64,000 nt of DNA from the NCBI RefSeq assembly GCF_003144115.1, contig NW_020311998.1, positions 247,669 to 311,668 on the forward strand, written 5' to 3'. The translations under genes were made by a program, and so were the position numbers. The notes under the pieces are model-generated. The model was given only the letters and a program-made list of their open reading frames with translations, did no database searches and had not been told where the DNA came from. Origin of the DNA: Tilletiopsis washingtonensis (lineage: Eukaryota > Basidiomycota > Exobasidiomycetes > Entylomatales). Positions 1 to 12,243 of the stretch are shown piece by piece. Every line of letters begins with the position of its first letter. Position 1 is the first letter of the stretch.

Positions 1-499
1 CTCTCCTCCTTCTCCTCCTCCTTCTTCTCCTCTGCCGGCGCGTCGGCAGCGGCAGCGGCACCGCCGGCAGCGGCGGGCGCGGCAGCAGCCGGGGCACCGC
101 CCGAGCCGGAGCCGATGGCAGTCAGGATCTCCTTGACATCCTTGCCCTCAAGCGCCTTGGCGAGGAGCGTGGCCCAGATCGGCTCGACCGGGCAGTTGGC
201 GGCCTGGGTGAGCGAGACGATCTTCTCGGACTGTCCGGGCATGGGTCAGCAATGCCCTGCTCGAGTACGCCAACGTCTCTACATCCTGCCAGCCCCCCGC
301 TGTCACCTCGCTGCCCGCTCCCACTCGGTGCCTCCAGTCCAGCGTCCTCAAGCCCAGCATGCCCTTCTCGCCTGCCGCCCCTTCCAGCTCCCTTTCTCCT
401 CGCGCATGCCCGGCTCGGCGGCATACTCACGCTGATCTCGAGGCCCTCGTCGGCGAGGATGAGGGCAGCGTACGTGGCGGCGAGGTCCTGCGAGGCCAT
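1..499 (-). CDS. RPP1: 60S acidic ribosomal protein P1 (3' end outside window)
   Basis: Minus-strand gene, start codon at 497-499. Exon 1 is 431-499 and encodes [20 protein letters not shown] plus EIS. A 200-nt intron (231-430, GTGAGT...AG) joins in phase 0 to exon 2 (230 down to the window edge), which continues [20 protein letters not shown], then [21 protein letters not shown], an Ala/Gly hinge and the acidic [10 protein letters not shown] tail. This is the standard P1 layout: a helical dimerisation domain, a flexible hinge and an acidic tail. P1 pairs with P2 on P0 to form the ribosomal stalk that recruits translation GTPases. The usual C-terminal GFGLFD motif lies beyond the left edge. 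P1 rather than P2 is indicated by the [17 protein letters not shown] block. The intron after about 23 codons fits the common pattern of an intron near the start of fungal ribosomal protein genes. Confidence 0.93.
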
Positions 500-984
500 C
501 TTGAACAAGCGGTGAGGAATGTGGTTGGTGGTGGTGGGACACGAGGCCGCGGCGGACGCCGTGCCAGGCCAGCAGCCCGGCCGCGGCGGCTCGGCGGCGC
601 TGCGGCGGACGCGGCGCCGGCGCCAGCCTCTCGCCCGCGCAGGCGCCACGTGTGCGACTCCGCGCGCCCGCCAGGCCTGATCACGTGTATCGCGCCGGGA
701 GTCGGCCCACGGAACTTCTCGCACGACACGGCTGCTCCCGAGTTGGCCCGCGGCCGCACCCTGCGCCGCTCAGCTTCACGCCGGCTGGCTGCAGCTCGCC
801 CACGTCGATCTCACCCAGCTCAGCACCTTTTGCATCGCTGCTTATGATGACTTGCAGCTGATCCAGCCAGTCGAGTTGGAGGCATCGCCCCGGCCTGCCA
901 ACGCGCTCTCGGAGGCCTCGGATATCGAGGCGCAGAGCCTGGCGTCGCCTCCGCGCCGCCGCCGCTCCGCCAGCGCAGCATCAT
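500..984. other. Gene-free stretch: RPP1 promoter side and repeat copy A
   Basis: No supportable gene. The part next to RPP1 (about 500-760) is its upstream region. The part from about 781 to 965 is one copy of a repeat whose inverted partner lies near 26.6 kb (annotated separately). Open frames here are short, GC-driven and lack domain signal. Confidence 0.6.
781..965 (+). repeat. Dispersed repeat, copy A
   Basis: About 185 bp that match the reverse complement of about 26565-26750, roughly nine bases in ten by eye. The shared core includes cgcccacgtcgatctcaccc, gcatcgctgcttatg, ccagccagtcgag and ggcctgccaa. The two copies differ by substitutions and a 1-nt length difference after cgctgcttatg, so they are diverged, not recent, copies. 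Copy A ends about 20 bp from the stop codon of the OTU gene. It may be a terminal or subterminal piece of the neighbouring mobile cassette, or an older unrelated element. Confidence 0.75.
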
Positions 985-3900
985 TCATTCTTGCGCCTCT
1001 GTGTCGTCCTTGTCCATTCTCGCCAGATCGCTCTCATCCAGCAGGTCGCTCTCATCCAGCAGAATCTCCTCCGCATCTGTTCGCCGCGGCGCCGGCAGGT
1101 GGTGCAGGTCGTGCCACGCAGGGGTGTCGGACGCGCTCGCAGCTCGCCACCACCAGTCTTGAGGAGAGGGCAGCTCGTGGAAGCGCACGTCGTGCCGCAG
1201 ATGGACGCGCTGGTAGTGGTTGCCATTGACAAAGATGATGGAGCGGAGGATGGGCTCGCCGTGGTTGCTCTCCGTCAGAGGGAAATAGAGCTCGCCGATG
1301 AGATGATCTGTGAGTCGAGCGTGGGGCCGGAGCGAGAGCACTGGATCTCCCAAGAACTCGGCGATGATTGGACCCATGGCGCCAATATCGAGCCAGCTCG
1401 ACGGCCGGGGTCCAGGTCGATGATCTGGACATGTTGCTGACAGCGCTGTGCGAAGGCAGACCATGGCAGTCGACGGCTGTAATGCTGCGAGATAGCGGCC
1501 GGGGTTGGCCAGTAAGCTGGCATGCAGTTCTGCACGTAGCTGCATGCCCGTCTTGTCTGTGCCGCTGGCGAGCGCGTGCCAGCCACAGGCTCCGTCGCCC
1601 GGCACGTCCTCGATGTGGTGGATCACCGCGCCTGATGGCCTGTGCCGCAGTACGTGAGTGGGCGGACTTGACTTGCCTCGAGGCTGGGGTTGACTCACCG
1701 GTGCCAGTCTGACGGTGGCTTTCCCGCCTGGGCGCTGCGGCCACGCTCAATGCGACCGGCGGCTTCTAGGTCGTTGCTGCCGATGAGCGCGACCGCCACC
1801 TTGTCATCGCTGCTTTGCCACGCGGCAAAGCATGTGCAGTCGCGCTCGTGGCGCGCGCCCAGCGCACCCCTGGTGCTCTGGCGCTGCAGCAACGGCGAGG
1901 TGGGCGGACCGGCACTCGACGGGCCGGCACCCGACGGGCTGGTGAGTAGGCGCAAGCGCTTCGTCGCAGGAGTGTCGGGCGTTGGTTCACCGCGCTTGCG
2001 CTTGGCGGGAGTGTTGGGCGCCGGCTCGCGCGACGGCTTGACATGCTCAGCAGCAGCAGCGGCGGCCGCAGACTCGGGCTCGTCGGAGCCGGGCTTGCGG
2101 TCAAAGAACGCCGGCAAGCTCGGCGGGATAGCTGCTAGCACGTCGAGCTTGCCGGCGTAGTCGTGCAGCTTGCTGCAGTGCAGGGCGCTCTCCTGCTGGC
2201 AGCGCTCTACCTCGGCCCGGAACTGCGGCTGGAACACCGCCAACTCCTCGTGCAGCGTAGTCACGACGCCCTGCACGAGGTTCGCTCGCCCGTAGGGCGC
2301 CAGATGGTCGCAGAGCGCGCGCCCGCGGTCCTTCGAGTCGGCGATTGACGCCAGGTAGACGTTCCAGTCGTCGCCGTCCTTGTCCTCGCACGGCCAGCCG
2401 GCGGCGACGTTGCCGTGGCGATAGGCGCGTAGCGCTTGCTCCCAGGTCGGCTCGGCAGAACGACACTGCAGGTGCCAGGCGCTGATGGCGACCTCCTGCA
2501 TGGCCGTGCGGCGCAGTGCATCGTCTATGTCTGCGCTCGCAAGGCGGCACGTGCTCTGGAAGAGGTCCTCAGCCCTCGACGGCGCTTCGATGAGGTCCCC
2601 AGCGCCGGACGGCGATGGCTCCTCGGGCGGCGCCGAGGCGCGCGACGGCTCGCCTGCCTCTGCCCGCGTCGCCAGCGCGTACTGCGTGTAGCTCGCGTCC
2701 CTGACCTGCTTGGCGCTCTTCGCCGCATCGGACGTCTTCTTGCTGATGCTCTTGACGCCCGGGCAGGACTTGAGCGCGGCGATGGCGGCGCACAGGCTGA
2801 CGTCGGTGTTCTCGAGAGCCTCGCAGACGACGGCGAAGGGCGGCGGCGGCTTCACGTCGGCAAACAAGCTGACGCACAGGCGCTGAAAGTGCGGACTGTC
2901 CGGCGCCAAGTCGGCGTCGTCCGAGATGCCGCTCCAGCGCTTCTTCCAGCCGGTTGGGCCCTCCAGCCCAAGCGGCGTGGCGAGGCGGGCGGCCGCCTGC
3001 GGAAAGAAGAGAGGCATGCGCGAGGCGGGCGATGCGAAGAGCTCAATCGCGCCTTCCGGCTCGTCGTCTGGCGCAGGCGATGCGGAGAGCTCAATCGCGC
3101 CTTCCGGCTCGTCGTCTGGCGCCTGCGCCTGCTCGGCTGCGGCACGCAGCTCTGCCACCAGTGTGGCTCGTTCCTCGTGGCCGATGATGATGCGGTCCTC
3201 GAGAAGAACCCACTCGGCTGGCATCTGCACGCTCTCGCTCTTGCTCTCGAGGACCGGCTCTAGCACCTCCTCCTCCTCTGCGTCGCCCAGCTGCAGCTCT
3301 TTGAGCCGCCGTTGGAAGATCTTGGCTTCCGTAGGCATCGCTCCGCCGACCTTGAGCGTGAGGGTCGGCGGCGGAGCCGTTGACCATGTGTGCCGTGCCT
3401 CGGCTTCTGTCGCCGTCGCGGCCCGACCGGCAGTGCCGGGCGCAGCCGCAAAGGAGTGCAGCGGGCCACACAGGGCGGCCACACCGGCCGCGGCCAGCGT
3501 GTTGAGGGCGAGATCCTGTGGCGAGAGGCGGCTGCCGCTCTCTTCAATGATGGAGAGGACGTGCTGGGCGAGGTCGCGGAGGCTGGCCACGGGCGAGGGC
3601 GACAGGGACGAGGTAGACTGCTCGCGCACCAGATCTTCAAGCATGGCCGTATGCGCGTGCGTCTGTATCCACGCACACAGAATGGCCGTCATGATCTCGG
3701 CGCTGTGAGGCGAGGCCCAGTACGAGTCGCTGGGCGCTTGTGCGCCTGCGGCACGCGTCATCTTGTCGAGCTGACCGAGAAAGGCTAGAGCGTCGACGCC
3801 TCGGGTGCGAGCCACTGTGCTAGCCGCCTGCAGTGCGGCGAGGACGGTGGTCGCGGTGTGCATGTTCAGCCATGCAGGATGCCGGGCCGGGTCGACGAGC

Positions 3901-4055
3901 AGCAGACGTGCGTAAGGCGAGTCGCTGACGGTTTGGCGTCTCGGCGCAAGTGAGTCGCCGGCGCTCGGCACCACGAGTGGAGGCGGCGGCTCTTGCAGCT
4001 TCCTATGGAGAGCGAGGAGGTCGCACGAGCGAGAAAGGACAGTTGAGAGAGCCAT
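985..4055 (-). CDS. Large protein with C-terminal OTU-type cysteine protease domain
   Basis: Two exons on the minus strand: 1699-4055 (ATG at 4053-4055) and 985-1639, joined by a 59-nt GTGAGT...AG intron in phase 2, giving 1003 aa. Residues 1-785 match no family I recognise. They are mostly helical or disordered, with a tandem duplication around DDEPEGAIEL (about 3030-3120) and a basic NLS-like patch PAKRKRGE...ATKRLRLL. The second exon holds an OTU-like domain: GDGACGWHAL supplies the Asp (801) and Cys (804), and NGNHYQRV supplies the His (927). OTU proteases usually remove ubiquitin. The intron joins the OTU part to the long N-terminal part in frame, so this is one gene. It is divergent from the FEN1-Fanzor gene across 345 bp, which suggests co-regulation and membership of the same element. 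Activity on ubiquitin is inferred. Confidence 0.75.
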
Positions 4056-4400
4056 GCTGAAAGACGAGGGGCGTGAGGTGGGGGGGGGGGGACGGCTGCC
4101 CGCAGCTGCCAGTGCCTGGGCCTGCTCGCCATGACGTCCAAGGCCGCGCACCCATACGCGTGTGCCAAGGCACGCACGTGTGCCGCGGCCCAGGCACGAC
4201 ACAGAGCGCTCCGGCCGCAACACCAACAGGGCACGCACGCCGCACACACGCAGGCACGCCGCAGGCAGCCGAAGTTCAAGTGCTCGCTTCTTCACCGGGG
4301 CGCGCGCTGCTGCTGCGAGGGCAAGGCACACAGACGCAGCTCTTGCTTCTTGCTCCCACTCTCTCTCTCTCTCTCGCTCTTTCTCGCATGCCCTCTACTC
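4056..4400. promoter_or_regulatory. Shared divergent promoter of the OTU and FEN1-Fanzor genes
   Basis: 345 bp between two divergent start codons. It contains a homopolymer run of about twelve G at 4079-4091 and a pyrimidine-rich tract (tctctctctctc...) at about 4358-4388, just before the plus-strand start. CT-rich tracts next to start codons are common in fungal promoters. The plus-strand reading frame stays open upstream into this region, but the MG start at 4401 fits the FEN1 family. Confidence 0.55.
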
Positions 4401-7400
4401 ATGGGCTTCTCCATCGACAGGTCTGGCCACTGGCTGCTGCGGAGCCTGGTCGCCGGCACCTACGATGGCGAGAGTGACGCACTCGCATACGCACGCCGCC
4501 ACTCTCAGCGCCTCCGCTTCCTCGTCGTTGACGCGACGCCGCTCGTCTACTCGATTGTCTCGCGCACCTGCGCTGAAGCAGGTGTCGCTGAAGCAGGCGT
4601 CGCTGAAGCAGGCGTCGCTGAAGCAAGCCTCGCCAACCTCGACGAGCTCGTCCGCGCCTGCATCGCCGCAGTCGTAGAAGAGATCTGGCGTGTCGCCGCT
4701 CTCCTCGACGGCGACGACAAACGAGTCATCTTCTGCTGGGACGGCGCGTATGTGGCACAGACGAAGCTCGACACGATCACGCGAGATCGCATGCGAGATC
4801 GCATCATCCATGCCGAGTCGTACAGGCGCGAGGCGAGCCACAGACGCCCACGCATCGAAGAGCTGCGTCGTCACGCTGCGGCTGCTGTGATGCAACGGCT
4901 TGTCAATCGCCTGTACAGCAGCGGTGGCCTCGACGAGCTCTTTGTGCAGCATCTGCTGCAACACGCACTCTGTGAGGAGGAGATGCTGGAGAACGCACTG
5001 GCGATTGACGAGCGCACAAAGACTGTGCTACACATTGTCGCCCGTGACGAGGCAGACTGCCTCATCGGCCGCCTCTGTCCTCGGCTGCAAGGCAGCGGAG
5101 AGTCGGCGGTGCTCTCGCCCGACGCCGACCTTCTGGTACACTCGCTCGCCGCGCCGCAGCTGTCGTACCGCTGGGTTGTCCAGCCGCTGCCAGTCACCCG
5201 CAAGCAGAGGCGGCAGCGCAGTGCGCTGCCGCCTCCGGCGTTCCATCGGCAGCACCTCTACGACCAACAGCGACTGCTTGCCATAGCCCCTCTCGTCTTG
5301 GCATCCGTCGCTCTCGGCACAACGGACTACGGCAACGGTCTGCCAGGTGTCGGCGCCCGCGCCCTGCTGGGCAAAGACGACTGGCTGCCGGGCCTCGCAG
5401 CGGCCGTGAAGCCTGGCCTCGTGTCCCGCGCCTGGGCCGACATGGCCGCAAGCGCAGAGAGCGTGCAGGCTCAGACCCATCGACTGATCCAGCGTGTGGC
5501 CGCTCTTGACTCCAAAAAGAAGCACAGCGCCATCGACGTCGCGCGCGTCTGCAGCATCGCCAACGTCTATATCCTCAGCACGCACGCCGCCACCGAGACG
5601 GTGCCGCGCCCATCGTTCTCCGAAGGCCCCGGCCATGGCTGGCGCAACACGCTCGGCTTCTTCGCCAACAAGCGCTTCATGCGCTGCACGCCCAAGAACG
5701 GCGCGGCAGAGCGCACGCCATTTGTTCCGACGCTGGACGCTTTGCCGCGCTTGCGCAAGCAGCTCGGCGGCCGCCAGACCGCAGTCGGGCGCACCTACCT
5801 CGTGCCCGTCGAGGATGCGGCAGCGATGCCGATCGGCGCACCCAGGGAGGGGCCCAATTGGGACCTCCTGCCAAGGAAGAAGCCACGCTCTGTCAAGCCC
5901 GCGCGGCATCGTCCGTCACAGAGCAAGAGAGCTGCGCAGAGGGCAGCAAGGCAAGACGAGGAGCCGCTCGTGGTCAGGAAGAAGACGGTCTCTATGCCCG
6001 GCGCAGCAGCGAAGGAGAAGCTGGTCGGCATCTTCGGCATCGCTACTGTGCGCTCTACATCTGCGGATCTCGACTCGACGTATGTCGGCATGGCTTCGAC
6101 GGTGGTCGTCGCCGGGCAGTACCTGTCCGTGGCTGTTCAGTTGACTCTGCGCGAGCTGCTTCTGCTCGAGCCGACGTTCCTGGCGTGCGAGGACATCGAT
6201 CTTGATGCGCGCCTGAGGACTCTGTGCCAGGTCTGCCGCAGCGCGTCCCCTCTCTGGACTCGGCGGCCGGACAGCGCAGCGCTCTCCGCAGAGCTGTCGG
6301 CACTCTCCGCAGAGGAGCGTGGACTCATGCGCCTCAAGGGCGTCACTATTCCCATGCTGCTGGCACGCCGGGCAACAGCCGACAGGATGAGTCTTCCGCC
6401 TGCCGCTCTCGCCGACGAACACTGCATCTCCAGCACCGCACACAGCATTGTGAGTGCATGTTGCGTGTCGTCACCAGCACCGCCAGCGTCACGACGTTGA
6501 TGCAGTTGTCGCTGCGGGCGCGCCAGTTGAAGAAGTGGTGCGGCCTTGCAGATCGCTTGCGCTCACTGCTCGCCAAGGCGCTGCGCACGGCCTATGGCGA
6601 CAAGCACGAGGCCATGCTCCGCGCTGCGCTCGACACGCCTCTAGACGAGTCACCTGTCTGCTCGGCGGACGTCATGGAGCTGCTCACCGTACGCAACAAG
6701 CACATGCACGCCGCTCGACTGCAGCTGCCAGAGCCCGATCGCCTCTGGTCCAGCACGCCGCGCCAGATGCTCGAGACGCTGCGCGGGGCTGCTGCGGTGC
6801 ACATGTTCCGTGCATGGATAGAGCGCCTGTCGGGCACCAGTGTGCTCGACGGCACAAACTTCTGCCCGGACTTTGTCTCAATCCACACACGTGGCGGGCT
6901 GACGCCTTTTGTGCGCGAGGCGGTGAGTCGCGCAGAGGCCGACGCAAGGGCGTGTCCGCTTACCTCGCCCGGCCCCTATAGAGTGCACGGCTTGGCGCTC
7001 TCGCTGCGCTTGCAAACCGCAGCCATCCGGCGCCGGCGCCCTTTGAGCACGAAGCGCTCGTGCGCTGCGGGCTCTTCTTTGACAGACAGCAGTGGGCACC
7101 ACGCCCGCACGTGGCCGCCGAGCACAAGTCTTTGCTTGCTCGCCTCAAGCGTGCCCTTGGCCTCAGCACCACCACCTCGCGCGTGTACGAGCTGGAGGCG
7201 AGGGCAGGCCGGCACTGGGTGCGGGCGTTCGAGAGCATCCTGGGGGTGCCCTGGCGCAGTCTGGGCTTCCGGAAGCCGGCCTGGCTGCCTACTGGGCACG
7301 TCGAGAGCAACGGCACGCAGATGCGCTGGAGCTACGTCAATCTGGCACGCCCAAAGCGCCGCCACATGGCCACGGCCGGCGTTGCCCAGTCCCGTCCGCT

Positions 7401-8598
7401 CTACGAGGACCAGCTCGACTCCGCGTGGGGCAGGCGTCTCCAGGCAGCTCCGATCGCCACTCTGCCTCTGGCGTCCAACCAGCGCTTCGAGCCAGCGAGG
7501 GCCAGTCGAACAAGCGCTTCGAGTGGCGGCATCGGCGGAACGACACCGGACAAGGAGATTCGAGAGCGGCTTGCAGCAGGGCCAGGCGCTGTGCATCACG
7601 TGGGCGTCGACCCCGGCCTCAACAACGTCCTCGTTCTCTCACGCCGCCGACCGCTGCGGCCAGGCACGGTCATTGCCTTTCCCGAGCCGCCTTCACCAAA
7701 GCTGGCGCTGCTGCAGCCGCTCTCCGCTGCCGAGCGCCGCCATCTTGGCATTCGACCCTCCGAGCCGCCTTGCTACCGCGCCACCGCCGCCGCTTGCAAG
7801 CTGTATGAGCTCTCGGAGAGCCTCACACTCAAGCCGGGCTCGCTGCGCAGTGACAAGCCTCTCAAGGCAGCGTCAGAGCCTCATCACCCTGGTGATGACG
7901 TGCAGCGGGCGCTGGCAAAGATGCTCACGCCCGTGCCCACGGCCATGGAGCGCGAGCGCCGCATCCTCCGGCACGCACGGCAGCAGCGCCGCGCCCAAGA
8001 CGAGCTGCTCGAGTGGCTTGTGCCCGGCAGCAGGCCCGGCTTCCTCGCTCAGCACCTGCAGCAGTGGCAGCAGGGCGACAGCCCGGCCCTTGTCATTGCG
8101 CATGTTGGAGACTGGGTGGGCCACAAGGCCTCCAAGCCAGCCCTTGCCGCCCCAGTGCTGCGAGGTGTCATGCAGCGCGCAGCGCTAGCATCGCCATCGC
8201 TGCCCATCCTGTTCCGCAAGCAAGACGAGTATCTGACGTCTTCTGTCTGCCCGGAGCGCTGCGAGGATGACGAGGGAAGTGCGGCCGCCGCAGCCGCCAC
8301 GGCCGCCCAGACGAACAAGAAGGGCACGCCCAACGTCGTCGTCGGCACGGCTCCCGAGCACGCTCGCTCACCCGTGCCTGCTGCCCGCCTGACAAGCGTG
8401 TATCGCAGCGCCACATCACGCCCAGTCCACGGCGTCAAGCGCTGCACCACATGCCGCCACCTCTTCTCGAGGGATCGAGCGGGGGCGGCAAACATACGCT
8501 TTGCCGGCATGCACGAGCTCGCCTTCGGCTATGGACCCTTCCGGCCCCGCCCCAAGAAGGCCGTCGGAGCCGCAGCCGGCACAGCGCCCGCGTCCTGA
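4401..8598 (+). CDS. FEN1/XPG-type flap nuclease fused to a Fanzor (TnpB-like) RuvC nuclease
   Basis: Three exons, 4401-6449, 6506-6922 and 6982-8598, with 56- and 59-nt introns, both phase 0; 1360 aa. The N-terminal part is FEN1/XPG-like, with all seven metal-ligand acids aligning: VVDA (D44), CWDG (D114), DEADC (E217, D219), SPDADLL (D241, D243) and TTDYGNGLPGVG (D309). The start MGFS resembles the FEN1 N-terminus. The C-terminal part (about 823-1360) has VGVDPGLNNV (RuvC-I, D1032), HVGDW (about 1197-1200, where the usual RuvC-II Glu is absent), QDEYLTSSVCPERC (E1238, C1245, C1249), RCTTC (C1310, C1313) and SRDRAGAANI (RuvC-III, D1320). That is the Fanzor pattern: DEY-TS, a zinc ribbon and DR-NI. 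FEN1 nucleases cut 5' flaps; Fanzors are RNA-guided DNA nucleases. The middle (about 350-820) is unassigned but has a basic linker. Both nuclease centres look intact. The fusion is read directly from splice phase; transcripts are needed to prove it. Confidence 0.85.
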
Positions 8599-8618
8599 GC
8601 CCTCGCGGCCGGCCCCTG

Positions 8619-8706
8619 GGGCACGCGCACATGCGTGCTTCTGATCTCGCCTGCACAATCACGTGCAGGTATGGGCACTTGCCGAGTCTCATCTCGGCAG
8701 TGCCTA
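8619..8706 (+). ncRNA. Candidate Fanzor guide (omega) RNA: three consecutive hairpins
   Basis: Starting 22 nt after the Fanzor-like stop codon are three hairpins. H1 is gcacgc (8621-8626) / gcgtgc (8633-8638), with a 6-nt loop. H2 is cctgcac (8650-8656) / gtgcagg (8663-8669), with a 6-nt loop. H3 is ggcac-t-tgccgag (8674-8686) / ctcggcagtgcc (8693-8704), with a 6-nt loop and one bulged t; flanking t8672-a8706 and a G-T pair can extend it to about 14 pairs. TnpB and Fanzor guide RNAs are structured and encoded at the 3' side of the nuclease gene, ending at the element border. Position and structure fit, but RNA evidence is lacking. The alternative is stem-loops in the 3' UTR or the COX17 promoter. 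Confidence 0.45.
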
Positions 8707-8887
8707 GCAGCTCGCGTCATCCACAATGCCGCCTCGCTCTTCACCATCACCACCTCACCTCAGCACCTCTCGCAGGCCCACGCGCTCACCGACACCGCCG
8801 CTGCATCTCCATCTGGACTGCAGCTAGCCCAGCTCTCGTGCTGCCTCAGCCACCTCGACCTTCTCGCCTCGCGCAGCGCAGCTCAGC

Positions 8888-9477
8888 ATGTCTGCGCCGG
8901 CTCAGAGCGTGCCGAACCCGCAGACGTCGGCGTCGGCAGTGAACCCGCTGAACCCAAAGGGCATCAAGCCGTGAGTATGGCAGTCTGTGCTCGACAATGG
9001 CTAGGCGCCGCTGCCGTCGTCGCTGCGGCTGCGCAGCTGCGCCCGCCACTGCCTCGTGGGAGGGAGTGCTTCGCGCAGCAGCGGCGAGCTGCTCTGTCGC
9101 ATTTGCTGCCCGGCAGTCTCTGACGGTCTTCCGCTTGCTGCCGCTTGGGTGGTGCTGCTGCGCTCTCAATGCGGCGTCTCCGCTCCCGTCGCAGCTTGCT
9201 GCCGCTCGGGCCCACTGCGACTCTGCATCTGCTCTCGCCGGGGCGCTCGCCACTGCAGGCGCTGGCGGTCCGTCTTCACGACGCGCTCCAGGACGCTTCG
9301 CTGACGCCGTGTCTCCTTGACAGCTGCTGCGCCTGCCCCGAGACGAAGCAGGCGCGCGACGACTGCTTCCTTCGCTTCGGACACTCGGTGGAGGAGCATG
9401 GCCCCGACGCGCGCAAGTGCGAGGACCTCGTGCGGAGGCATCGCGAGTGCATGGCCAGCCTGGGGTTCAAGATCTAG
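8888..9477 (+). CDS. COX17: Mitochondrial copper chaperone Cox17
   Basis: Two exons, 8888-8970 and 9324-9477, joined in phase 2 by a 353-nt intron (GTGAGT...TTGACAG); 78 aa. The protein ends [17 protein letters not shown], then a C-x9-C arrangement ([20 protein letters not shown]). This is the Cox17 signature: the copper-binding CC pair (the KPCC motif) and twin CX9C motifs that form disulfides in the intermembrane space. Cox17 hands copper to Sco1 and Cox11 for cytochrome c oxidase. Its start lies only about 180 bp beyond the candidate right end of the Fanzor cassette, so its promoter may be short or partly supplied by the element. It converges with the SAM37-like gene. Confidence 0.95.
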
Positions 9478-9623
9478 TGGAATGCCAGCATGTGAGATGT
9501 ACGTGCGCTGTGTGATGTCAGAAGGCGGGTGGTGTTGCGTGGGACAGAAGCTCGACGAGCGCAATGCGAGTGAAAGCAGAGAGCCACAGAGCATGGCTGA
9601 GGAATAGAGGTGCGAATCATGCA

Positions 9624-11343
9624 TTACTCATCGTCATCGTCGACAAAGGCAAAGTCCAGCTCCTCCTCTTCGTCCACCTCTGTTTGTACTTCCCAGCCAT
9701 CCTCCGCCTCGACTCCCAGTTGCTCTTCCTCTCCCTCCTCGTCCTCGTCCTCTTCCTCTCCCTCCTCCAGCTCCTCCTCATCGTCGCTCTCTACTCGTCG
9801 CACTTGCGCAGGCCGCAGCACGCCGTCCGCCTCCTCGAGCACGACGTAGCCCTCGTCCTCGTCGTCTTCGTCATCGACGAACTCGATGCTCAGCAGGCCG
9901 CTGGCGAATGCCGTAAAGACGACGCCGACGATTGCCGTGCCGATCCACACGGCGCGACCCCAGAGAATGCGGCGCCGCTGTGCTCGCACGTGCGGCGGCT
10001 CGGCGGGTGCTGTGGGCTGCGTTGCTGCTGTGCGGCGAGAAGAGAAGCTGGAGGCTATCCGGTCGGGAAGTGACGCGCCGAATGCCCAGACGCTGCCAGC
10101 TGCGTGGCCGACCGTGTACGCCACACCGGGGCCAGCGGCGACGTCGTCTCCAGGCAGTGCAGGCCAGTCGACGGCCTCGAGCCCGCCGTCGGCTGCGACG
10201 CGGGTGGGCCAGAGCAGCGAGCGCAGGCGCGCCGTGTGTGCCTCGAGCGTGGGGAAGGAGCGCAGCAGCTGTGCGAGCGGAGAGGTCGCGAGGGCTTCGT
10301 ACGACGGCGGCAGCAGCAGTGGTGCGAGGAGTGAAAAGAGCTGGATGTCGAGCGGCGAGGGTCTGTGCAGAACGCGATGAGCAACTGAAGCACTCGTGAG
10401 GCCGCTGTGCGCTGCTCACCCAGACGCGCCGTCGAAGTACTCGTCCGAGCCTAGTGCCGTGGCGACCGTCTGCAAGACACTGCGTGCATGCTCGATGAAC
10501 TGTGTGAGGCGCTTGTCAGTAGCGATGCAGGCGATCAAATGCTTTGCTCGAGAGCACGAAGAGATCGCACGACTCGCTTTCCGGGGGCAGACATGCGCTC
10601 CCTGAGAAGTGCGCACAGAGCACCGCACGCTCGCCTCCGCCCACCGCCTGCTCCCCATGCCGCCATCTACGACGCATACTCACCTTTGCCTCTCCGAACT
10701 TCTCCTGCGTCTGACGCTTCTCCTGCTCGCTCAAGCCCTTGCGCAGGCGGATGCCAGCTCTCCGCGCCACCTCATCTCGCTCCTTTGCCTCCTGCTCCTT
10801 TGTCTCCTGCAGTGCCTCGCCGAGCCCGAGCTCGCGCATGCGGCGCGCCAGCTCCGGGCGCAGCGCCGCGCGCAGGCGGTGCGGCGCAGAGCGCGAACGC
10901 GGCCATGAGAGACCGGCGGCGTACGCAGAGAACGTGTGCGTGGCAAAGAGCGGCGTGAACCACTGCGCGTGCAGCAGTGCAGGTGCCAGCGAGCGCTCGA
11001 GCAGCGCCGCCAGTGCCGCGTGCGCCGGCTGGGGCGCCTGCAGCACCGGCGCGCGACTGCTGCTGCTGCTGCTGCCGCTGCTGCTGCCTGCGCCGTCGAG
11101 AGCGGCGAGTGCCAGCGCCTTGAACTCGGCGGGCGAGTGTGCCAGCGGCACGGCGCTGAGGTGCGCCTCGAGCAGCGGGGCGCGCGCGTGCAGCAGCGGC
11201 TGCAGGGTGCCGACGGCGAAGGGCAGCGCTGCGGCCCGCAGCAGCGAGGCGGCATACAGCGAGGCGGCGTCGAGCGTGGGCAGGCCCGCAGTGTCGGCGG
11301 AGCTGGGCGCCCAGACGATGAGCTGCGGCGGCGGCGAGGCCAT
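9624..11343 (-). CDS. SAM37: SAM37/metaxin-like outer mitochondrial membrane protein
   Basis: Three minus-strand exons: 10684-11343, 10420-10499 and 9624-10362; 492 aa with all phases closing. The N-terminus (MASPPPQLIVWAPSS...) resembles the Tom37/metaxin glutathione-S-transferase-like domain. The middle and last exons give the GST-C-like part, with FIEHARSVLQTVATALGSDE and GPSPLDIQLFSLLAPLLLPP. Near the C-terminus a basic patch precedes one membrane segment (GRAVWIGTAIVGVVFTAFAS). Sam37 belongs to the SAM complex that inserts beta-barrel proteins into the outer membrane. Oddities are an Ala-rich N-terminal domain with a poly-Ser run and a very acidic tail of about 80 residues after the membrane segment. 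The family call rests on the overall pattern, not on a strong motif. Confidence 0.7.
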
Positions 11344-12243
11344 GGCTGCTGCTGGGATGGAGGATGTGGAGAGGAAGGAGGCGGGAGAGCATCGTCGCCT
11401 GTGCATAGTGCGCAGCCAGACGCAGCGCAGCATCGAGACTCGGCGACGCGCGCAAAGCTCTTCCCCTCCACCATGCGCGCCCCTCTCACCGGCGCAGAAG
11501 CAGGGCTTGCGGCGTCTACGCAGCTCATACTGATGCACTGAATACGACAGAATATGCACTGAGACTTGAGAAACAGGTCCGAAGAGCCAGAATGCAGTGT
11601 CTGTGCGGAGGCGCAACACTTGCGAGAGGACAGCTCGGGCTTTGCTCGCCAGCACTGGGCTCGCCTCTCACCGACTCGATGGCTTGCTTAGCGGACTGCC
11701 ATCTCAAAGCGGGGAGCTCTGCTCTTCACCGATACTGGCAGAAAGCAGACGGTGTAATGGTGGCGGTAGTTAGCTTCTCGGACCCTCGTGCTGGAGACGC
11801 AGCTGCAGGACTGCCAGACGAGACGCAGTGCCGAACATGAGCTGCCGCAGAGCCCAATCAGAATCTGCGCTTGCCGGCCTCTCGGACCGCTTGCAGCCGG
11901 CGCAGCGCGGCAGCCTCAGCAGCCTTGATCAGCGTCAGGCTCTGTTGCCCTGCGCTGGCATGCTGCGCTGCTCGCTGTTGCGGCCAGGGCGTGAGTGCGC
12001 GATGCCAGAGGTGCAGCTTGGCGCACGTCGGGCTTGGCTCGCCGGCGCGCAAGCCACGCGGCGAGCTCGCGTCGGTGGCCGGCCGCGGCGTGCTGGCCGT
12101 GAGCTCCGTGCGGTGCGGGGCCCCAGCGAGCGCGGGGCGGCGTGGTTGCTCTGCCTCCGCTCGCCCGCCAGGCGGTGTGCTTCCTCCGGCCGCCGGCGCT
12201 GCTCCTTCTCTCACAACCTCATCCACCGCTTTCCTGACAAGCC
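11344..12243. promoter_or_regulatory. Divergent intergenic region between SAM37-like and AACS genes
   Basis: 900 bp with no supportable gene; it must hold both promoters. A short open frame from 11592 and others here lack domain signal and conserved splice sites. No tRNA or repeat was recognised. Confidence 0.5.

Follow-up and report, generated by a model that had tools for sequence, protein, structure and literature searches.

Fanzors, 5' nucleases and the fused gene

Fanzors are eukaryotic relatives of CRISPR nucleases, and cut DNA under the guidance of RNA; enzymes of the FEN/EXO1 type remove 5' flaps or resect 5' ends. In the basidiomycete Tilletiopsis washingtonensis we find a single gene that joins a FEN/XPG-like nuclease to a Fanzor-like nuclease, and beside it, head to head, a partner gene with an OTU-like end. 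The gene lies in a 64,000-nt stretch of contig NW_020311998.1 (NCBI RefSeq assembly GCF_003144115.1, positions 247,669 to 311,668), hereafter 'the window', which is part of an 18.7-Mb genome of 32 contigs, labelled here with C and a number. That the two nucleases are joined in one gene, as a repeated and conserved architecture, is well supported by comparison of the four copies that this genome contains.

The closest described proteins are those of the Fanzor1 group, such as SpuFz1. In the passages of PMC3627910, PMC10432273, PMC10711439 and PMC11423790 that describe them, these have in common with the fusion a RuvC triad that begins with DPG, an alternative Glu, a conserved Gly ahead of the zinc ribbon, the C4 ribbon itself and the RD pair. 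They differ in that the fusion is longer, ~1360–1440 residues, and starts with a FEN/XPG-like nuclease; in that no element ends and no transposase are recognized at the window fusion; and in that the two halves of the zinc ribbon stand far apart in the window copy. A Fanzor-bearing element may carry a second endonuclease—PGv-1 and its relatives have one of the GIY-YIG kind—but there, according to the relevant part of PMC3627910, the element encodes its nucleases as separate proteins and brings a Mariner transposase with it.

Among the titles and abstract beginnings listed from the Fanzor/TnpB literature we met no description of a FEN–Fanzor fusion, although most subscription papers fell outside this scope and such an absence is no proof. 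In the main texts of PMC10432273, PMC11423790 and PMC10711439 the words 'fused' and 'fusion' refer to tag fusions only, and these occur in PMC10711439. One preprint contains an ambiguous sentence that describes no architecture, and that may or may not concern a fusion of this kind.

One gene, four copies

The FEN–Fanzor gene occupies the plus strand of the window in three exons, which join to encode a 1360-aa protein and its stop codon. Exon 1 (4401..6449; residues 1–683) carries the FEN/XPG-like nuclease, a basic linker at ~492–531 and the start of a middle region; matches of FEN/XPG models to this part come from the paralogues. Exon 2 (6506..6922; residues 684–822) continues the middle region, and exon 3 (6982..8598; residues 823–1360) encodes the Fanzor-like RuvC nuclease. 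The two introns, 6450..6505 (56 nt, GTGAGT...GATGCAG) and 6923..6981 (59 nt, GTGAGT...TATAG), are both of phase 0. A first-pass annotation, made from the window alone, had drawn the gene in this way, and its exon coordinates, splice sites, intron phases and protein length all agree with the sequence. The ten residues it named—D44, D114, E217, D219, D241, D243 and D309 in the first half, D1032, E1238 and D1320 in the second—are present in the joined translation, and its 'Cys4 ribbon' corresponds to C1245, C1249, C1310 and C1313, the second of which is spaced differently in the C19 copy.

The window copy by itself is hard to classify, and it is the paralogues that settle the architecture. When the genome was searched with window exons 3 and 1, C19, C15 and C25 each gave collinear matches to both halves; those on C5, C6 and C11 were partial. 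Gene models with GTGAG...CAG introns give proteins of 1357 aa (C19), 1385 or 1389 aa (C15, where one intron has two possible ends) and 1438 aa (C25), which are 40%, 34% and 32% identical to the window protein, respectively. In all four copies the two halves are collinear and in frame. The C15 copy is the most telling: its first exon is an uninterrupted frame of 1049 codons that begins at the start codon, takes in the FEN half and the middle region, and ends a little short of RuvC-I; both window intron sites fall inside it. In 500 first-order Markov simulations of this exon the longest open frame averaged 339 codons, and reached 785 at most. At the site of an intron in C19 and C25 this exon has a short in-frame stretch that might itself be an intron, a whole number of codons long; with or without it the frame stays open. 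The claim of the first-pass annotation that both nucleases are encoded by one spliced gene is thus borne out, at the level of gene models, by the open C15 exon and by the full-length fused copies on C19, C15 and C25.

Introns are common to the paralogues in both place and phase: near window residues 543 (C19, C25), 1007 (C15, C25), 1200 (C19, C15, C25) and 1302 (C15, C25). The first of these falls between the FEN and Fanzor halves. None of the four is present in the window copy, whose own two introns occur in no paralogue model, a pattern best read as intron loss and gain in the window copy alone. When the proteins are divided into five segments, the closest pairs in every one are window–C19 and C15–C25 (45% and 47% identical over residues 1–330; 45% and 50% over residues 1021–1345), which is the pattern that a fusion older than the copies should give.

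Of the 1360 window residues, 198 are identical across the four copies. Of 130 Asp and Glu residues in the window protein, 18 are invariant, and all ten predicted catalytic residues, seven of FEN type and three of RuvC type, are among those 18 (hypergeometric P = 1.6e-10, with residues treated as independent). The middle region (residues 561–900) is 25–36% identical between copies, less than either catalytic part, and residues 901–1020, upstream of RuvC-I, are 27–43% identical. To judge by their sequences, then, both predicted nuclease centres are complete, and are conserved in four diverged copies. AlphaFold, run without an alignment on single window sequences, gave models with a mean pLDDT (predicted local distance difference test) of 42.2 (4401–5660) and 38.7 (6982–8598); these were unusable.

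The remaining matches in the genome are incomplete. The piece on C5 (L030:5364-6724) consists of the RuvC half only, with the DPG of RuvC-I kept, and neither a FEN half nor a partner gene was recognized within 13–15 kb on either side of it. C6 has FEN pieces only, broken by stops, and C11 has a piece of 34–35 residues.

The C-terminal half

The C-terminal half was compared with published signatures of the Fanzors. The TnpB/Fanzor motif given by Bao and Jurka in the relevant passage of PMC3627910, D-X(125,275)-[TS]-[TS]-X-X-[C4 zinc finger]-X(5,50)-RD, is found in all four copies when the zinc linker is allowed 2–80 residues; in the window protein it comprises D1032, a gap of 208, T1241-S1242, C1245/1249/1310/1313 and R1319-D1320. 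The Fanzor fingerprint that Yoon and colleagues set out in PMC10711439—DPG at RuvC-I (1032–1034 in the window protein) together with an alternative Glu that precedes the first cysteine of the zinc ribbon by six residues—is likewise present in all four. Bao and Jurka also point, in PMC3627910, to an additional conserved Gly and Glu in Fanzor1 proteins, G500 and E536 of SPu-1-1p. G1198 and E1238 of the window protein are identical in all four copies, and profile alignment places them on a Gly and a Glu of SpuFz1 that we count as 36 apart, as in PMC3627910, in a match that is weak (E=0.35). This was the one match at E<=10, among 177,635 PDB sequences, to a profile of the four C-terminal parts; the protein matched is the Spizellomyces punctatus Fanzor SpuFz1, and the alignment, which spans GDW...DEY-TSSVCP-RC, is weak in score but specific.

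The zinc-ribbon model PF07282 (Cas12f1-like_TNB) matches all four copies at E<=1, at best 2.2e-6; in the genome search C19 scores 29.0 bits, above the curated cut-off of 26.3, and C15 scores 18.7 bits, below it, as does the window copy, at 11 to 15.5 bits (13.3 in the single-copy Pfam scan). The NCBIfam model guided_TnpB matches three of the four, with a best E of 0.0023, although window exon 3 reaches only 10.1 bits against a cut-off of 100. In PHROGs three of the four match phrog_506, 'transposase', weakly (best E 0.067). We take the C-terminal half to be a Fanzor-like RuvC nuclease, probably of Fanzor1 type; RNA guidance and nuclease activity would follow from that kinship.

The N-terminal half

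The N-terminal half resembles the FEN1/EXO1/XPG 5' nucleases in its residues. Seven carboxylates in FEN order (D44, D114, E217, D219, D241, D243, D309) are identical in all four copies, as are M1, G2, K122 and R130, and a Gly-containing turn follows D309. We take the seven carboxylates to map onto the FEN1 catalytic residues, M1-G2 to be the Met-Gly start of the FEN family, and K122 and R130 to be the basic gateway residues that come after the second Asp. What sets this half apart from FEN1, EXO1 and XPG is its great divergence, with no match over a curated cut-off and no PDB match, and its fusion to a RuvC nuclease.

In some of the copies family models match parts of the fold, all of them below their curated cut-offs. 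XPG_I_2 matches three of the four at E<=1, around E217–D243, and best in C25 (E 9.7e-4); around the D114 segment there is a fen_arch match in C19 (E 0.0025) and in C25 (0.12), and none in C15. The two models thus cover different parts of the fold, in different copies. Turned around, a profile built from the four FEN halves found an XPG_I gene elsewhere in the genome at E 7.6e-5, and among the window's other frames nothing better than 0.084. From its sequence we read this gene as EXO1-like. After the FEN half the window, C19 and C25 proteins have a Lys/Arg-rich linker, which would fit nuclear entry; the most basic stretch of the C15 protein is elsewhere.

The partner gene and the cassette

The head-to-head partner gene is newly recognized here; the first-pass annotation made no mention of it. 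In the window it runs from 4055 down to 985 on the minus strand, and a 59-nt intron (1640..1698, GTGAGT...CACAG) joins its two parts into a protein of 1003 aa. Exon 1 (1699..4055) encodes an N-terminal part of ~785 residues in which no known domain was found, and which is homologous to the head-to-head neighbours of the C19, C15 and C25 copies; exon 2 (985..1639, with its stop at 985–987) encodes an OTU-protease-like domain with an Asp-Gly-X-Cys motif (codon of C804 starting at 1587) and a later His (H927, codon starting at 1218). The start codons of the divergent pair are separated by an intergenic region of 345 bp (4056..4400), presumably a shared promoter, of which no second genomic copy was found. 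The corresponding distances are 394 bp on C15, 306 bp on C25 and 603 bp on C19.

A homologous partner stands head to head with the fused gene at all four loci. The window partner matches its counterparts on C19 (E 2e-27), C25 (3e-5) and C15 (2.9e-6 as frames, 0.007 in direct tblastn), and the C15 and C25 partners match each other at E 5e-27. The links to C15 and C25 come from locus comparisons and, for the OTU-like part, from a genome search with that part, which found the window, C19, C25 and C15 and, weakly, a piece on C6. This last piece (C6:874361-874576, E 1.5e-4) and the FEN pieces of C6 are ~148 kb apart. The OTU-like stretch belongs to the partner gene because on C15 a single frame, open for 1195 codons counted from its start, holds both it and the N-terminal part, and because in the window the intron joins the two.

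Likeness to the OTU-type cysteine proteases is partial. Asp-Gly-X-Cys and the later His are kept in all four partners (in C19 the His is on a further exon, with a guessed junction), no catalytic acid being assigned, and the best PDB profile match of the OTU-like part is the OTU protein EschOTU, with E=0.044 over the whole chain and 1.7 and 650 for its two stretches alone. Unlike those proteases, the partner was missed in the genome search with the Pfam OTU model, PF02338, and Pfam scans gave no OTU match; hence we call it OTU-like only. Nor has its N-terminal part, 785 residues, a known relative: the best PDB matches to its profile, at 0.033 and 0.21 (coronavirus-type non-structural protein 8) and 1.2 (mL49), are taken as chance. 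A clear Pfam OTU match (E 8e-12) does occur in this genome, at C7:8126-8506 on the minus strand, in a 2882-codon frame near the contig end that is possibly a large mobile-element protein.

When ~30 kb around each locus was compared, little besides the fusion and its partner recurred: a dispersed repeat of 1335 bp on C15 and C19, weak matches, and some short repeats, of which one falls within the partner frame of C25. The two-gene cassette is thus the shared unit, and by sequence comparison its two genes occur together at four unrelated sites.

What the cassette might do

We put at roughly 0.6 the probability of the following reading: that this is a two-gene cassette in which a 5' nuclease of FEN/EXO1 kind, joined in frame to a RuvC nuclease of Fanzor1 type and accompanied by an OTU-like partner, couples a guided break to end processing and so to copying repair. 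The Fanzor half would be led by RNA to a matching site, and would make a double-strand break there. The tethered FEN half would trim or resect 5' ends or flaps as the break forms—we infer this from the known activities of the Fanzor and FEN/EXO1 families—and ends so processed would favour repair that copies from a homologous template. In a selfish element such copying could bring the cassette into an empty allele, that is, by homing; after domestication its use could lie in targeted repair or recombination. The weakest step concerns the OTU-like protein, which might stabilize the nuclease or work on ubiquitin signals where breaks occur. The presence of copies at unrelated sites, and of pieces on C5, C6 and C11, suggests past spread, by homing rather than by cut-and-paste transposition. 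More tentatively still, and with the odds somewhat against us, the cassette may represent an undescribed class of fungal element: one with two genes and no transposase, which makes RNA-guided breaks and resects 5' ends with one protein, forces repair by copying, spreads by homing, and carries an OTU-like partner that guards the nuclease or tunes the response to the break.

How Fanzors help their carriers is, to our knowledge, unsettled. That a fusion to a 5' nuclease has been kept in four copies, diverged as they are, suggests that end processing belongs to the Fanzor job, an idea that can be tested with one protein. On the more tentative reading above, the fusion would in effect be a programmable nuclease of natural origin with end resection built in. 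It would also offer a natural model for genome editors designed to direct repair to copying. A second, unexplored handle on function is the conserved OTU-like gene.

A number of points weigh against this reading. The fusion is known from one genome, and here from genomic sequence alone; the sole relative outside it, P0001, the one match from a protein-database search with the C-terminal alignment, is a metagenome piece of 494 residues, 99.3% identical to the C15 protein over 454 aa, and it lacks the FEN half. In the protein database neither the full-length query nor the four-copy alignment, for each of which 8000 candidates were scored, had a match at E<=1; none of 54, 60 and 44 pattern matches in viral contigs and prokaryote genomes was confirmed; and the best PDB match to the full-fusion profile, at E 3.3, is taken as chance. 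The window copy alone has no significant family match in Pfam, NCBIfam or single-exon PDB searches; in the last of these, exon 1 gave a best E of 0.35, taken as chance, exon 3 gave none, and nothing relevant appeared. The first-pass annotation had assigned this copy to both families, and matches to both were indeed obtained, mostly from the paralogues, the window copy itself scoring weakly.

For the FEN half no match exceeds a curated cut-off in any copy (XPG_I_2 19.2 against 24.2 bits, XPG_I 14.6 against 24.9, fen_arch 16.9 against 352), the window copy has no match at all, and we therefore term this half FEN/XPG-like. Its profile clearly found one of the six XPG_I places in the genome. No FEN1, EXO1 or XPG chain of the PDB was matched at E<=10 by the fusion or FEN-half profiles; the best matches of the latter, 0.069 to a run of glutamines and then 0.34, are taken as chance, as is the best match of the C19 FEN exon (1.6). 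For the Fanzor half, the C-terminal profile matched, besides SpuFz1 and that weakly, no other Fanzor or TnpB chain of the PDB at E<=10; no WED or REC part was recognized by sequence match; and no guide RNA was identified, Rfam giving nothing in window 1–12000. A genome search with the first 786 residues of the partner returned itself and the C19 partner, not those of C15 or C25. And what speaks for mobility or homing is the distribution of the copies, nothing more.

The alternative that survives best, though we think it rather unlikely, is that of a domesticated host enzyme, whose two centres are kept for housekeeping, be it in recombination, in the repair of DNA or in defence of the genome, and whose cassette is now immobile. 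The first-pass annotation proposed a role in mobilization, and what surrounds the window copy does not demonstrate it. Among the 25 longest of 31 inverted-repeat pairs in window 3600–9700 none convincingly brackets the cassette; no transposase-like Pfam match occurs in the eight neighbouring frames scanned; and the flanks at 8560–9000 and 4040–4420 have no second genomic copy in a search that skips very common words. (Six frames beside the C19, C15 and C25 copies, one of them the C15 partner, likewise gave no Pfam match at E<=0.01.) The gene directly downstream of the fusion is that for the copper chaperone COX17 (window 9145–9477, plus strand; Pfam E 1.5e-16), and the copies are old, to judge by the 32–40% identity of the others to the window copy, yet intact. 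Against domestication, diverged copies at unrelated sites, together with decayed or partial pieces on C5, C6 and C11, resemble the birth and decay of a spreading unit more than they do a single conserved host gene.

Less probable again is a C-terminal half that descends from TnpB/Fanzor but has lost RNA guidance, and works beside the FEN half as a structure- or sequence-specific nuclease. This would account for the unrecognized WED and REC parts and for the low conservation of the middle region, below that of the catalytic parts; but all four copies retain both the zinc cysteines and the Fanzor fingerprints, and over residues 901–1020 they are 27–43% identical. We consider it quite improbable that the FEN half acts on guide structures, trimming a guide RNA or an R-loop, and leaves the RuvC half as the sole DNA cutter. 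FEN-family enzymes do cut at the junctions of flaps and hybrids, and the two centres are tethered in every copy; yet the Rfam search brought up no guide RNA, and all seven carboxylates of a DNA-flap nuclease are kept, which by itself leaves RNA substrates possible. Least credible by far is an artefact, in which adjacent FEN-like and Fanzor-like genes have been wrongly joined by false introns: the window copy does require two unproven introns that no other copy has, but the halves are collinear and in frame in all four, introns are shared in place and phase, including the one between the halves, and we reject a two-gene reading of the locus because the single open exon of C15 spans both intron sites.

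A dispersed repeat near two of the cassettes

The 1335-bp block noted above is present at about eight places in the genome, at least, and is 95–98% identical between copies; these include C15:469140-470579 (L037:6121-7560) and C19:382388-383836. Two of the blocks lie ~1.3 and 0.3 kb beyond the partner genes of two cassettes, which seems more than chance would give. We considered whether the repeat is a non-autonomous relative of the cassette, and saw no ends that the two share. The block might mark an insertion hotspot, or be a relative of the element.

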